From: a virus
IMG/VR virus record: IMGVR_UViG_3300023179_002972
Span: 1-23,519 of that record
Reading direction: 5' to 3' (one strand)
DNA: 23,519 bases
Positions within the stretch are counted from its first letter, which is position 1. Each line of letters begins with the position of its first letter. The translations under genes and the position numbers were made by a program. This document shows positions 6,526 to 22,562 of the stretch, in pieces. Below the pieces are notes generated by a model. It had not been told where the DNA came from. It saw only the letters and a program-made list of their open reading frames with translations, and did not search any database.

Positions 6526-6580
6526 GAACGAAATCCGTTCCGAGTCGCTTACTTCCGTCTGGTTTCCCAGATGAACGATA
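6526..6580 (-). promoter_or_regulatory. glutamine riboswitch (glnA / Downstream-peptide type)
   Basis: The minus strand reads ATCGTTCATC (6579-6570), a hairpin TCTGG-GAAA-CCAGA (6571-6558), then GACGGAAGTAAG (6559-6548). This is the conserved core of glnA and Downstream-peptide RNAs (GUUCAUC, P2 hairpin, GACGGAAGUAGG). TCGTTC (6578-6573) can pair with GAACGG (6540-6535) to close the junction (P1). These RNAs bind L-glutamine and occur in marine cyanobacteria and their phages, typically before short ORFs, exactly the arrangement here. One core position differs from my recalled consensus (AAGUAAG rather than AAGUAGG). Recognised by eye, not by a covariance model. Confidence 0.8.
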
Positions 6581-8403: not shown

Positions 8404-10038
8404 ATGTATAGATCACAAAGAATTGTCGTTGTTGGTGGCGGCACTGCTGGTTGGTTCTCAGCAACAACTTTAAAAAGATTTTTTCCAGAAAGAGATATAA
8501 CCGTTATTGAAAGTCCCAAAGTCCCGATTATTGGCGTAGGAGAAAGTACCTTAGGATACTTTACTTACTGGTTACATGCAATGGGTATTGATGAAAAAGT
8601 TCTTTTCCAATACACAGACGCTTCTTATAAATCCAGTATTAAGTTTACGGACTTTTACAAAAAAGATGCTGGAGGATTTCACTATCCATTTGGCAGACCA
8701 TGGACTCCTAACGAACTTTTTGGAGATATTGGTGCTAAAGCTTGGCAGTATAAAAAAGTTTTTTATCCAGAAACTCCAGTAGAAGATTACTGCAGAACAA
8801 TATATCCTCATATGCCATTGATTGAAAATAATAAAATAAACAAAAATGAGGAAGGAAAACTAGAAGATTATACATTTATACATGCAAATGCATATCATTT
8901 TGATGCTGTTAAGTTTGGAATATTTCTAAGAGATCATCTATGCGTTCCAAATGGAGTTAAACACATTACGGCGGAAGTAAAGAAAGTTGTATCGGATGAA
9001 AATGGAGTTAAAGAAGTCGTTCTTGATGATGGAAGAGTCATTCAAGGTGATTTATTCGTTGATTGTACTGGATGGAAAAGTCTTCTGATAGGTGAAGAAA
9101 TGGGAGAACCTTTCTTATCCTACGATCACCTTATTCCAAACAATAAAGCTTGGGCAACAAAAATTCCATATACAGATAAAGAAAAAGAACTTGAACCATA
9201 TACCAACTGCATAGCATTGGGAAATGGATGGGTTTGGAATATTCCTCTCTGGTCAAGAATTGGAACTGGGTATGTCTATTCTGATAAGTACATCTCAAAA
9301 GAAAATGCTCTAGAAGAGTTTAAAAGATACCTTAAATCAGATAAAATGAGCCATTATGATCCAAACAGAAATGTAGATGATCTTGAGTTCAAAGATATCA
9401 ACATGCGTATTGGAATTCATCGCAGAACCTGGGTTAAAAATGTAGTTGCCATCGGTCTTGCTGCTGGATTTATTGAACCATTGGAAAGCACAGGTTTATA
9501 CACTGTTCACGAATTTCTAATGAAACTGGTGAGTTACATAGATAGAGATTATTATAATCAGTTTGAGATTGATTCATATAATGCGACAACAAGATTAATG
9601 TTTGATGGTCTATGTAAGTTTGTTGCCGTTCATTATGCTCTCTCACACAGAGACGATACTGAATACTGGAGAGATGTTAGAAAAAGATCTTATGCATCGT
9701 ATTTAATCGATGATGTTCAAACAAATCAAGCAATAGAACTTCAGTATTGTGTCGACCAGTTTGGAGAACTTGTTGCTAGAAAATCGCATGTCCATGAACA
9801 CAATCTACGTTCAGGCAATCACTGCATTTTAAATGGTCTGAACTATAATGTAGTTAGTATGGAAAATGTTGTTCATGATGGATTCTATGGATATGGGCCA
9901 AGTGTTGAGGATGCTAAGAAAACGATTAATCAGATGATGGTTAAGTGGGAGGAAAAGCAAAAAGAATGGCAAAAAATTGCCGATGAATCTCCAACTCAAA
10001 TGCAATACTTATACGATAATTTTTACAAGCATTTTTAA
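8404..10038 (+). CDS. flavin-dependent tryptophan-halogenase-like enzyme
   Basis: A 544-residue FADH2-dependent halogenase. Motifs: the dinucleotide loop GGGTAGW (11-17), GVGEST (44-49), the catalytic Lys76 in SYKSSIKF that forms the lysine-haloamine or guides HOX, and WVWNIP (276-281), the W-x-W-x-I-P signature separating halogenases from mono-oxygenases. IGLAAGFIEPLESTGL is the second conserved flavin-side block. The cyanophage Syn10 enzyme VirX1 of this family prefers iodide and accepts many substrates, so a Trp substrate should not be assumed. It starts 28 nt after a divergent promoter and is followed 1 nt later by the HldD-like gene, forming the only plus-strand operon here. Confidence 0.95.
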   Translation: MYRSQRIVVVGGGTAGWFSATTLKRFFPERDITVIESPKVPIIGVGESTLGYFTYWLHAMGIDEKVLFQYTDASYKSSIKFTDFYKKDAGGFHYPFGRPWTPNELFGDIGAKAWQYKKVFYPETPVEDYCRTIYPHMPLIENNKINKNEEGKLEDYTFIHANAYHFDAVKFGIFLRDHLCVPNGVKHITAEVKKVVSDENGVKEVVLDDGRVIQGDLFVDCTGWKSLLIGEEMGEPFLSYDHLIPNNKAWATKIPYTDKEKELEPYTNCIALGNGWVWNIPLWSRIGTGYVYSDKYISKENALEEFKRYLKSDKMSHYDPNRNVDDLEFKDINMRIGIHRRTWVKNVVAIGLAAGFIEPLESTGLYTVHEFLMKLVSYIDRDYYNQFEIDSYNATTRLMFDGLCKFVAVHYALSHRDDTEYWRDVRKRSYASYLIDDVQTNQAIELQYCVDQFGELVARKSHVHEHNLRSGNHCILNGLNYNVVSMENVVHDGFYGYGPSVEDAKKTINQMMVKWEEKQKEWQKIADESPTQMQYLYDNFYKHF

Positions 10039-13735: not shown

Positions 13736-14669
13736 AAGAATCCTTTACATCCTCCCCGATCTTTGTAAAAATTTCTTTTAACTGCGATTCATCAAATTTC
13801 ATAACACCATCATTTGTTCTATCTGCAAGTTGACAATCTAATCCACCAATTCTGATTGGATTATATTTTACTTTTACATTTCTGTTTCTATAAAATTTAA
13901 AGTAATCTGGATATGATACATTTTTTTCAAAAGTAGATCCCATTAAAATAAGACCCTTTTTGTTAAAGGCACGAGCTATATGTTGCCCAACACTGTCACA
14001 CCCAATAAAATAATCACACTCATTTATCAGTGACATGTACATTCTTAAATCTGTCGTTGGTGGGCAAAATGCATCAGAACATCCAGAGAACTGAAATAAA
14101 TCTGGAGGACCAAAGTAAACAATTCCAGCATATTGAGAAAGATGTTTACACAAAGTTGCAAAATCTTCTGGATACATGCTTCTACCAGAAGAGTCTATGA
14201 AAAGATTATTCTCAAGTTTTGCTCCACTTCCAAATGGTTGAAAAACAATAATTTTATTTTTATTAACTTGCTGCTTAAAATTTTCAATATTTGATCTTAT
14301 TCTTGCTGTTTCTTCATAACTAACGTACAGATTAGGTTTATCTAAATCGCTATGGTCTTCAGTTTTATTAATGATTTCATCAAAAGATTCGGCAAGTGAT
14401 TTTTCTTGATTGTAGTATCCATATACATGATATGGTTCTGGAGCAACAAGATTATAGTTTTTAATATAGTTTTCAAAAATTCCTTTCTGACTTACCTCAA
14501 AAGTTTTTTCTTGTAAGATTGGATGACTCCAATACATCATGTCCCACCCATGCACCAAAACTTTAAAATCATCATCTGGATTTAGTCTGGCAAACTTTTC
14601 AAGTGCTGGGATTGCAGTTACAACCCTACCAGATCCACCACTAATTAAAAATGATGTATTTTTTTTCAT
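13674..14669 (-). CDS. GT9 heptosyltransferase-like glycosyltransferase
   Basis: A 331-residue GT-B transferase resembling GT9 (WaaC/WaaF-like) enzymes. The N-terminal ISGGSGRVVTAIPALEKFA matches the G-x-G-D-x-x-x-T-P-loop region, and the C-terminal half has KIIVFQPFGSG, DYFIGCDSVGQHIARAFNKKGLILMG, the donor-site block D-S-x-x-x-H-x-A. GT9 enzymes transfer heptose from ADP-heptose to LPS core, which fits the ADP-heptose genes directly downstream. It is coupled by an ATGA overlap to a 31-aa frame upstream and its end overlaps the YkgJ gene. The donor sugar is inferred from context. Confidence 0.83.
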   Translation of the reverse strand: MKKNTSFLISGGSGRVVTAIPALEKFARLNPDDDFKVLVHGWDMMYWSHPILQEKTFEVSQKGIFENYIKNYNLVAPEPYHVYGYYNQEKSLAESFDEIINKTEDHSDLDKPNLYVSYEETARIRSNIENFKQQVNKNKIIVFQPFGSGAKLENNLFIDSSGRSMYPEDFATLCKHLSQYAGIVYFGPPDLFQFSGCSDAFCPPTTDLRMYMSLINECDYFIGCDSVGQHIARAFNKKGLILMGSTFEKNVSYPDYFKFYRNRNVKVKYNPIRIGGLDCQLADRTNDGVMKFDESQLKEIFTKIGEDVKDSYEKPQTIRTKPRKLASNKGF

Positions 14670-16034: not shown

Positions 16035-16820
16035 TTATAAGCTATAGTTTGAAGGAACACAAGCAATCGCAGCAGATCCATGATGGCTTGTATTAATATC
16101 TGTCCAAAATGTAGAAGTAGCCGCACCGACCTGACTTGGACAATAACAGGTCCCTGTTGAATTCAATCCCAGTTCACCATGAGGGTTGTATCCCCATGTC
16201 CAAAGAGTTCCATCAGATTTAGTTGCCGCTTGGTGATGACTATCAATGTTACAAGATAATCTAATCCAGGTTGTTCCGCAACAGATTGTCTGAACAGGTG
16301 AGCTTCTTGGTATTGCTGACCCATCTCCCATTTCACCATGAGGACTATGCCCCCATCCCCATAAACTATTATCGGTTTTTCTGGCGAACATACGTGTCTG
16401 ACCACCACCAATATCAATCCAACTAGATCCAGGAACTTGAACTGGACAATTTCTCTCGCAAGTATCATTCAATCCTAGTTGACCATGAGGGTTATGTCCC
16501 CATGTCCAAAGAGTTCCATCAGATTTAAGACCAGCAGTAGCATGACCACCTACAACAAGACCGCAAATCCAGTTACTACCTGGAAGTTGAATTGGAGAGC
16601 TGAAGTGAGGACAGATGCAACACGGGTCTGAACAACAAGGAACCCATCCATTATTACATGCCCAAACAGATGGGCAGAAGCAAGTTGGAGAACAACAAGT
16701 TCCAAAATAAGGACAAGCAATGCAACAAACACCCAAAGCCCCGTGACCATTATTCCCCCATGTCCATGCCGTCCCATCACACTTAATGCCTATAGTATGA
16801 TGTCTGTTGCCAGAAACCAT
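16035..16820 (-). CDS. RCC1-repeat protein, C-terminal part after in-frame TGA
   Basis: The open frame from the ATG at 16820 (261 residues) to 16035 carries blades 4 to 7 of an RCC1 propeller (WGNNGHGALG, WGHNPHGQLG, WGHSPHGEMG, WGYNPHGELG). The same frame is open further upstream to 16985, covering blade 3, and joins the N-terminal part across a single TGA at 16986-16988. The ATG used here lies inside a blade and has no proper ribosome site, so independent translation is unlikely. Blade 4 holds an insertion with 13 Cys in about 43 residues (16603-16730). The protein is probably an extracellular adhesin on the virion. Treat it as half of one interrupted gene (16035-17390). Confidence 0.72.
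   Translation of the reverse strand: MVSGNRHHTIGIKCDGTAWTWGNNGHGALGVCCIACPYFGTCCSPTCFCPSVWACNNGWVPCCSDPCCICPHFSSPIQLPGSNWICGLVVGGHATAGLKSDGTLWTWGHNPHGQLGLNDTCERNCPVQVPGSSWIDIGGGQTRMFARKTDNSLWGWGHSPHGEMGDGSAIPRSSPVQTICCGTTWIRLSCNIDSHHQAATKSDGTLWTWGYNPHGELGLNSTGTCYCPSQVGAATSTFWTDINTSHHGSAAIACVPSNYSL
16191..16221. repeat. 31-nt repeat encoding the KSDGTLWTWG blade strand
   Basis: Identical over 31 nt to 16497-16527 and with one mismatch to 20092-20122 in the next RCC1 gene. It encodes the conserved strand of a blade on the minus strand. Flanking bases (ACCATGAGGGTT) are also shared. Confidence 0.85.
16497..16527. repeat. second copy of the 31-nt RCC1 repeat
   Basis: Same sequence as 16191-16221. 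Together with the copy at 20092-20122 it provides micro-homology both inside this gene and between RCC1 paralogues. Confidence 0.85.
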
Positions 16821-16985
16821 TTTCCAGTTAGTGCCTGGTATTTGAGTTGGTGAGGCAAGGCTCTGATTTCCTTTACATCCCTGCCCAAGTTGCCCGTTAT
16901 CACCAAGTCCCCATGCCCATAGAGTTCCATCACATTTAATACCAAAACTATTATGACACCCACCAAAAAGCCTTGACCAGTTGGT

Positions 16986-16988
16986 TCA
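16986..16988 (-). other. in-frame TGA at a conserved Gly codon
   Basis: The frame reads ACT CAA CTA CCT TGA ACC AAC TGG. In other blades the same spot is PG-S/T-NW with GGA or GGC, so one G to T change explains the stop. Downstream the frame stays open for 55 codons before the next ATG and for 317 codons to the final stop. Confidence 0.9.
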
Positions 16989-17390
16989 AGGTAGTTGAGT
17001 TGGTGATGAAAGTTGATTGCTAAAACCACCTATTCCCAAAGCCCCGTGAGGATTACTCCCCCATGTCCATGCCGTGCCATCGGTTTTTGTGGCAACAACA
17101 CGACAGTTACCCATAGATACAGTTTTCCAGTTAGATCCTGGAACTTTTATAGGAACTAAAGAACAACCTGGTTGAGGAAATTGTTCACCAAATGCCGCAC
17201 CAAGAATTGATCCAGTGTTATGTCCCCACACATACATTCTAGTTTCATTAGGATCGGCGGCACTATAATATCCACCCGTTGTATTAATACCAGAACTAAT
17301 GGCATCAAACATCTTGTTTAGATTATTTGTTGTCTTTAATGAAAATGGACTCGGTAGTGTACCAGCCTTTGGTGGTAGTTGAAACGCCAT
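16986..17390 (-). CDS. RCC1-repeat protein, N-terminal part
   Basis: A 134-residue N-terminal portion starting MAFQLPPKAGTLPSPF, a short proline-rich arm that may attach to the tail, followed by RCC1 blades 1 and 2 (MYVWGHNTGSILG, TWGSNPHGALG). Each blade ends in the SPTQ-x-PG-x-NW consensus; here the last one reads SSPTQLP-stop where Gly is expected. Without readthrough the product would be two blades, not enough for a closed propeller. An AATAAATA motif at 17427-17434 lies 36 nt upstream, and the gene follows the TPR-GT9 gene. Confidence 0.78.
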   Translation of the reverse strand: MAFQLPPKAGTLPSPFSLKTTNNLNKMFDAISSGINTTGGYYSAADPNETRMYVWGHNTGSILGAAFGEQFPQPGCSLVPIKVPGSNWKTVSMGNCRVVATKTDGTAWTWGSNPHGALGIGGFSNQLSSPTQLP

Positions 17391-19284: not shown

Positions 19285-20547
19285 TCAGTTATAACAGCAA
19301 ACACCATAAGGCGTATAAAAAACCGAAGGATACGTTTCAAAACATATTCCTTCTTGTTTCTGTGAAACACCATCAGTTCTTGCCACAACGAACCAGTGTC
19401 CTGCAGCAACATCTCTCCATGTGGTTCCTATAATTTGTTGTGGACTAGATCTTGGTGTTGCTGTAATATCAATTTCGCTGTGTGGATTTTGCCCCCATCC
19501 CCAAAGAGTTCCATCACATTTAACACCAAAGATTTCATTATAACCAGCGCCCACACAGCACCATGTTGTCCCAGCAACTTGAAGTGGAGAAGACATTGTA
19601 CCACAAGTAGTGCAGTTGCCAGGTTCTCCTGCAGGTAAATGCCCCCAAACCCAAAGAGTATTATCATTTTTAACTCCAGCCGTTTGCCAATGTCCAGTCG
19701 ATGATTTTGAGATATAAGTCCAAGAACCTGGCAACAATACTGGAGAACAATAGTTAGAGGTATTACTAGTACCTAAATTTCCATGTGGATTAGATCCCCA
19801 ACTATAATGAGATCCATCTGATTTTTTTCCAAAAGTTCCTCTACTTCCACCTCTGGCACAACACCAAGTTCCTGATATTTGAACAGGTGAGCTTCTAAGT
19901 GTTGTTGTCCCATCTCCCAGTTCACCATGGGCATTATAACCCCAAGAATACAAGTTACCATTACATTTGACGGCATATCCTTGGTGTTGTCCAGCATGAG
20001 ATTGACACCAATCAGTACCAGATCCAACTTGCTGAGGAGTCGGATAACTACTTCCATCAATGTTTAAACCAAGTTGTCCATGAGGATTAGCTCCCCATGT
20101 CCAAAGAGTTCCATCACATTTAACACCAGTTCCACTATAAAATCCAGCAGAAACATATCTCCAACATCCTGCAATTTGAGATGGTGAAGATGATGGTGTA
20201 TATGATCCATTTCCAAGCATACCATGATTATTGTAACCCCAAGCCCATGCTGTTCCATCGGTTTTAAGTGACATCAACCAATAACATCCTACCATGTCAT
20301 CGATGGCATGAGTTCCAGACCAACAATCAACCGAACCAACTAAAACTGGTACGTGACTAGATCCTGGACTACCTGCCCTCCCATATCCGAATTCACCATG
20401 TGGGTTATGGCCCCATACATATAATCCATATAATCCAGAAGAGGTCGCTTCATATCCCCAGCATTTAAAATTTAATCTACCATATACATCATTGATTGTC
20501 CACGGACCTTTTTTATGCCTTGTCAGAATATTCGTTCTTACACTCAT
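19285..20547 (-). CDS. RCC1-repeat propeller protein (tail adhesin candidate)
   Basis: A 420-residue protein made of seven RCC1 blades: WGHNPHGEFG, WGYNNHGMLG, WGANPHGQLG, WGYNAHGELG, WGSNPHGNLG, WGHLPAGEPG and WGQNPHSEID. Seven is the number that closes an RCC1 propeller. An N-terminal arm (MSVRTNILTRHKKGPWTINDVYGRLN) may attach it to the tail, and the protein ends FYTPYGVCCYN. Several Cys pairs occur between blades (WCCARGG, NCTTCGT, WCCVGAG). There is no signal peptide. The eukaryotic RCC1 function is not implied; in phages the fold is likely a receptor-binding or tail decoration domain. Strong ribosome site AAGGAGTAAT before the ATG at 20547. Confidence 0.88.
   Translation of the reverse strand: MSVRTNILTRHKKGPWTINDVYGRLNFKCWGYEATSSGLYGLYVWGHNPHGEFGYGRAGSPGSSHVPVLVGSVDCWSGTHAIDDMVGCYWLMSLKTDGTAWAWGYNNHGMLGNGSYTPSSSPSQIAGCWRYVSAGFYSGTGVKCDGTLWTWGANPHGQLGLNIDGSSYPTPQQVGSGTDWCQSHAGQHQGYAVKCNGNLYSWGYNAHGELGDGTTTLRSSPVQISGTWCCARGGSRGTFGKKSDGSHYSWGSNPHGNLGTSNTSNYCSPVLLPGSWTYISKSSTGHWQTAGVKNDNTLWVWGHLPAGEPGNCTTCGTMSSPLQVAGTTWCCVGAGYNEIFGVKCDGTLWGWGQNPHSEIDITATPRSSPQQIIGTTWRDVAAGHWFVVARTDGVSQKQEGICFETYPSVFYTPYGVCCYN
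20092..20122. repeat. third copy of the RCC1 repeat, in the second paralogue
   Basis: One mismatch (CAC for CAG in the plus-strand reading) from the two copies in the first RCC1 gene, 3.6-3.9 kb away. Confidence 0.8.
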
Positions 20548-21383: not shown

Positions 21384-22562
21384 CTAACACTTAATGCCAT
21401 AAGTACTATCACCAAATGAAGAAATGGTAGTCCAAGTTGAGAATGAAGTTCTTTGTCCAAGACCGTTTGCACATCCCAAACTATTGCTACCCAGTTGCCC
21501 GCAAGAGTTATTTCCACTACTATATAGCAAGTTGCAGCAAGAGAGAATCGTAACGTGATTTGCACCAGCAGCAACAAGGTTTTTCCAACATGATGAACTG
21601 GCATTAACAATACAAAAACACCCACAGTTTGCGCCAGATCCTACGGCGCCAGCCATTTGCCCAACACTGTTAAGACCCCACGCAAAAAAGTTTCCATTAA
21701 GATCAGTCCCATAACTATTATTTTGTGAGGCAGAAGGTTTATACCAGGCTCCAAGAACTTGAACTGGAGATGATCTGTCTGGAGCATTTCCCTGGCATCC
21801 ACCACCAAAACTAAAACAAGCAGTTCCAATACCTAGTTGCCCATAATAGTTATTGCCCCAAGACCACATAGTACCATCAGACTTAATAGAAAGTGCATGG
21901 TAAAATCCAGCTTCTATTTCGCACCAGTTATTACCTGGAATTTGAACTGGTGAAGATCTTGGAGATACACTAATATCACCAACTTGTCCATAACAGTTAT
22001 ATCCCCAACCATACAACTGTCCTGTAACTGTTGTTGCATATGTGTTATAGTATCCGCCTACAATATTTTTCCATCCAGTTCCTGGTATTTGAACTGGTGA
22101 GGATCTTGGAAGATTTCCAGCGGCGCAGTTATCTCCCAGTTGTCCATAAAGATTAGATCCCCAAGACCACAAAGTTTGGTCCGATTTAACCGCAATAGTA
22201 TGCTGTCCACCAGTACCCACAGAAGACCAAGATCCTGGAACTTGAATGGGTGAACTTCTTGGAAAAGCCGTACAATCTCCCAGTTGTCCAACACTATTAT
22301 CTCCCCATGTCCATAAACTACCATCCGCTTTAATACCAGCAGCGTGTTTATCACCAGAAGAAATATAAATCCAGTTAGTTCCTGGAACTTGAGTCGGTGA
22401 AGATCTTGGAAGTATAGTACCATCACCAAGTTGTCCACAGTCATTTGATCCCCAAACTAACAAACATCCAGGTTCACCAGCAATAGAATCTGCTTTCCAG
22501 TTACCATCTAAAGTTCTATCTTTTACTACATTTAGACTCCATATTCCAGATCTGTATGGCAT
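21384..22562 (-). CDS. RCC1-repeat propeller protein, Gln-Leu-Gly type
   Basis: A 392-residue protein with seven blades: WGSNDCGQLG, WGDNSVGQLG, WGSNLYGQLG, WGYNCYGQVG, WGNNYYGQLG, WGLNSVGQMA and SGNNSCGQLG. The blade turns are the ordinary RCC1 N-x-Y-GQLG form, whereas the other two paralogues have N-P-H-G, so this one is the more distant member. It is Cys-rich near the end (GANCGCFCIV, LSCCNLLYSS). The N-terminus MPYRSGIWSLNVVKDRTLDG may be the attachment arm. It follows the fibre-like gene and its leader has a GGGG ribosome site. Likely a virion adhesin. Confidence 0.88.
   Translation of the reverse strand: MPYRSGIWSLNVVKDRTLDGNWKADSIAGEPGCLLVWGSNDCGQLGDGTILPRSSPTQVPGTNWIYISSGDKHAAGIKADGSLWTWGDNSVGQLGDCTAFPRSSPIQVPGSWSSVGTGGQHTIAVKSDQTLWSWGSNLYGQLGDNCAAGNLPRSSPVQIPGTGWKNIVGGYYNTYATTVTGQLYGWGYNCYGQVGDISVSPRSSPVQIPGNNWCEIEAGFYHALSIKSDGTMWSWGNNYYGQLGIGTACFSFGGGCQGNAPDRSSPVQVLGAWYKPSASQNNSYGTDLNGNFFAWGLNSVGQMAGAVGSGANCGCFCIVNASSSCWKNLVAAGANHVTILSCCNLLYSSGNNSCGQLGSNSLGCANGLGQRTSFSTWTTISSFGDSTYGIKC

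Follow-up and report, generated by a model that had tools for sequence, protein, structure and literature searches.

The in-frame TGA that interrupts the RCC1 gene at positions 16035-17390 most probably represents a very recent change of one base, private to this record, in an otherwise ordinary and conserved gene, either a base error or a null variant, with no programmed role (probability of about 0.94). According to the proposed sequence of events, the RCC1 gene of a T4-like cyanophage, situated in a neighbourhood of tail-fibre and baseplate genes, would have acquired the change in one record, and a conserved turn glycine would thereby have become TGA. The stretch of DNA analysed (the window, 23,519 nucleotides) is, as judged from its sequence, a 23.5-kb record of such a phage.

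The RCC1 gene and its in-frame stop

The features of the window considered here are as follows.

16035..17390, minus strand: RCC1 seven-blade propeller gene, 451 codons counting the TGA as a codon
16986..17390, minus strand: 134-codon open part and stop, encoding the N-terminal segment, the closing strand (residues 49-56), blade 1 and the first strand of blade 2
16986..16988, minus strand: in-frame TGA at residue 135, in the turn that joins the first two strands of blade 2
16035..16985, minus strand: 316-codon open part past the TGA, encoding the remainder of blade 2 and blades 3-7
19285..20547, minus strand: RCC1 paralogue, intact, seven WxWG blades
21384..22562, minus strand: RCC1 paralogue, intact, seven WxWG-type blades

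Translation of 16035-17390 on the minus strand yielded 134 residues, the TGA, a further 316 residues and the terminal stop, confirming the description in the first-pass annotation of a frame open on both sides of the TGA. Pfam RCC1 models matched on either side in one frame, and the read-through translation scored 131.3 bits with PF00415 against a curated cut-off of 21.7, which places it among RCC1-type proteins. The W-x-W-G signatures, counted by eye, numbered seven both here and in each of the paralogues. The annotation had also counted seven blades across the TGA, as in both paralogues, in agreement with these signature counts and with an AlphaFold2 model of the intact allele. A Cys-rich insert with about 13 Cys in 45 residues lies between blades 3 and 4 (16602-16730, minus strand); it is kept in a relative with 57% identity, and a similar insert was observed in another record (L081).

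The AlphaFold2 model, for which the input was the intact allele from a near-identical record with 23 sequences, had a mean pLDDT of 76.5, a pTM of 0.78 and seven blades; confidence was low in the region of the Cys-rich insert (residues 224-258). From the N terminus onwards, the model comprised strand 49-56, then six blades of four strands each, and finally three strands at the C terminus (415-445). Read together with the RCC1 fold, this order suggests that strand 49-56 and residues 415-445 form blade 7 and close the ring. The best PDB matches found with Foldseek were UVR8, the HERC2 RLD, RPGR and RCC1 (E about 1e-24 to 1e-29), and the viral structural matches were RCC1 proteins encoded by phages and by giant viruses. 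The phage protein therefore shares with the RCC1 propeller family (PF00415 / PF25390; RCC1, UVR8, HERC2 RLD) the seven blades, a PF00415 score above cut-off and an N-terminal strand predicted to close the last blade, but differs in the Cys-rich loop that separates blade 3 from blade 4 and is about 20% identical to the eukaryotic proteins with solved structures. A further difference is that nothing points to a Ran or chromatin role for the phage protein. According to the model neither half should close the ring alone, since the 134-residue product would contain blade 1, a single strand of blade 2 and the strand needed for closure, and the remainder would lack that strand. Since neither fragment resembles a finished protein, the model argues against a designed short form.

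Carrier phage and intact relatives

The gp32-type single-strand-binding protein of the window shares 78% identity with its counterpart in Synechococcus phage S-SRM01, and the genes of the window include those for PhoH, ThyX and a tryptophan halogenase. The halogenase gene (8404-10038, plus strand; phrog_2928, E 1.6e-140) is on the strand opposite to most genes, with a nucleotide-sugar epimerase-like gene after it. A glutamine riboswitch aptamer was located at 6532-6579 on the minus strand (Rfam RF01739, 38.3 bits, above gathering). The genome of S-SRM01 (NC_070963) encodes three RCC1 genes, gp335, gp337 and gp344 (32% identity over 97%), in the order baseplate wedge, long tail fibre, RCC1, RCC1, TPR protein, 2OG-Fe(II) oxygenase and RCC1, a neighbourhood like that in the window. 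Unlike the gene in the window, the S-SRM01 genes are annotated as intact with no premature stop. A tail-associated host-contact (adhesin) role for the RCC1 protein is plausible from this neighbourhood. A literature search found no paper on the function of cyanophage RCC1 proteins, and the S-SRM01 paper does not mention RCC1.

The record IMGVR_UViG_3300014819_000019 (45,195 bases), from another dataset, spans the window except for two short scaffold gaps. By eye, the parts of it beyond the window hold tail-fibre-like and baseplate-like genes. Over about 23.4 kb aligned, the two records differed at two bases. The difference at base 79 is a synonymous third-position GAA/GAG transition that lies 79 bases inside the window, in the last part of a baseplate-like gene. 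The difference at base 16988 is the only change in 16035-17390; 3300014819_000019 has a glycine codon at this site and its RCC1 gene stays open throughout. This record has assembly gaps of its own, and its glycine was confirmed by 3300017917_002411 (about 90% nucleotide identity), in which the RCC1 gene is likewise intact. A third relative, with 57% amino-acid identity, also has an intact gene and Gly at the site. Separately, 3300014819_000019 contains 71 bases that match nothing in the window, with a run of N after them (L125:3897-3977, beside window 14397-14418), probably a contig-end or scaffolding artefact.

The first-pass annotation had attributed the stop to a single base change at a conserved Gly and had proposed a search for the glycine allele in related phages. 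Both points were borne out by the one-base difference at 16988, by the invariance of Gly135 in an alignment of 23 proteins and by the presence of Gly in all three relatives. None of the relatives found had an identical early stop. The 316-codon part past the TGA showed no decay, being identical to that of the intact allele in 3300014819_000019. Comparison of the intact allele with the 90% relative yielded a dN/dS of 0.12 for the part preceding the site and of 0.22 for the part beyond it, results indicating that both halves have been retained as one protein. Since the gene in the window has no further change, the stop is either very recent or not real.

A wider census gave a similar result. The sequence flanking the site, scanned exactly with either base, matched only 3300014819_000019, a scan that may omit the record of the window itself. 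Scanned over viral_contigs, the TGA form of the turn pattern returned 41 distinct matches, of which none fell in an RCC1 frame, and the GGA form returned 65, of which several dozen did. Among 175 distinct phage RCC1 arrays (50,316 codons), gathered by RCC1-like patterns from fetched records and including many distant relatives, so that they represent a census of those records and not of all phages, five had a stop between signatures. Four of these stops are the ends of tandem RCC1 genes with a Met close behind, and the fifth is the TGA in the window; the 174 other arrays (about 50,000 codons) had no stop inside a gene. The turn residue across the 175 arrays was Gly in 258 instances and a stop in one. 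Very long tandem RCC1 genes, with 10-22 consecutive signatures in two adjacent same-frame genes, were observed in four other phage records (L173, L174, L198 and L206).

Readthrough, recoding and reinitiation

The first-pass annotation had listed programmed UGA readthrough, by which a single gene would yield both a short and a long product, as one of three possible causes of the stop. The frame is open to either side of the TGA, and in bacteria a UGA with A as the next base is prone to leakage. A comparable arrangement is found in the Q-beta coat and A1 proteins, where one UGA likewise lies between two open parts of one frame and the virion requires the protein made by readthrough. Unlike that of Q-beta, the stop in the window is confined to one record and the relatives are intact, so that the conservation of the stop expected for readthrough is lacking in every relative found. 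The A following the TGA begins a Thr codon in the intact alleles as well and was therefore not selected for readthrough. The 86 bases past the TGA fold no better than shuffled sequences (z +0.44), although bacterial readthrough can occur without downstream RNA structure, and Rfam returned no recoding element, the sole match being the distant glutamine riboswitch. The short form would moreover be an incomplete propeller. Programmed readthrough is accordingly considered highly improbable. Similarly improbable is a newly arisen dosage or host-range variant, in which a leaky UGA would keep the propeller at low dosage in one lineage. The possibility with the least to recommend it is that the two parts are translated as separate proteins, the second by reinitiation at an internal ATG (16820). 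This ATG opens an ORF of 261 codons, but it is an ordinary internal Met in the intact alleles, lies about 165 bases past the stop and has no clear ribosome-binding site by eye. The ring-closing N-terminal strand is also encoded before the stop and would be outside the reinitiated product.

Recoding of UGA in the genome, which the annotation had dismissed, is contradicted by the use of TGA as the terminator of 7 of the 27 genes in the window. No tRNA genes were found in the window, and those in the scanned parts of the 45-kb record 3300014819_000019 were for Met and Ile only, with no suppressor tRNA among them. Of the three causes listed, mutation and error remain, and readthrough giving short and long adhesins is contradicted, since the stop is present in no relative found, stimulatory RNA was not detected and the fragments are not predicted to close the ring.

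Origin of the stop: base error or real variant

The favoured origin of the private change, at slightly better than even odds, is a base that is wrong in the assembly as the result of sequencing error, DNA damage or a low-coverage consensus, as judged from the assembled sequence. The stop is private to one record and is an isolated G:C to T:A change. PMC8748355 proposes guanine oxidised after shearing as a source of false G:C to T:A changes. Of the single substitutions that the gene can undergo, about 4.6% create a stop, as do 47 of the 595 (7.9%) in the G:C to T:A class; an error is favoured over a real allele because selection purges stops from real variation and not from errors. Against an error, many phage RCC1 records from different datasets agree at every base over 4-8 kb, so that consensus errors seem rare in this collection, although some of these records may derive from shared assemblies. 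Slightly worse than even odds were given to a real nonsense allele, null or nearly so, that is common in the source population; the odds for both origins are a matter of judgement and not of computation. The synonymous third-position transition at base 79 resembles real microdiversity, and two intact RCC1 paralogues remain, so that the allele was perhaps tolerated, or was perhaps favoured through altered host contact. If real, the variant would be expected to produce a non-functional 134-residue fragment, apart from basal leakage at the UGA. A real allele is opposed by its occurrence in only one record and by the purifying selection on the gene, and the downstream frame with no decay whatever would require the allele to be very young.

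Three other origins were considered. Misassembly driven by repeat collapse is inconsistent with the finding that every k-mer (11-31 bases) spanning the changed base occurs just once in the window. A pseudogene would be expected to show decay, and no other change was present in the gene relative to the intact allele. A diversity-generating retroelement seems unlikely, only one base being different and no reverse transcriptase having been noticed among the longer ORFs of the window.

Nonsense variants and base errors in established gene families are familiar events. The lesson is one of quality control, namely that a lone premature stop be compared with near-identical records before recoding is proposed. 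If the base is an error, the TGA is not a real feature. A real allele would show that loss of one RCC1 paralogue out of three can occur in nature, a result that would help to probe the role of these common cyanophage propellers.
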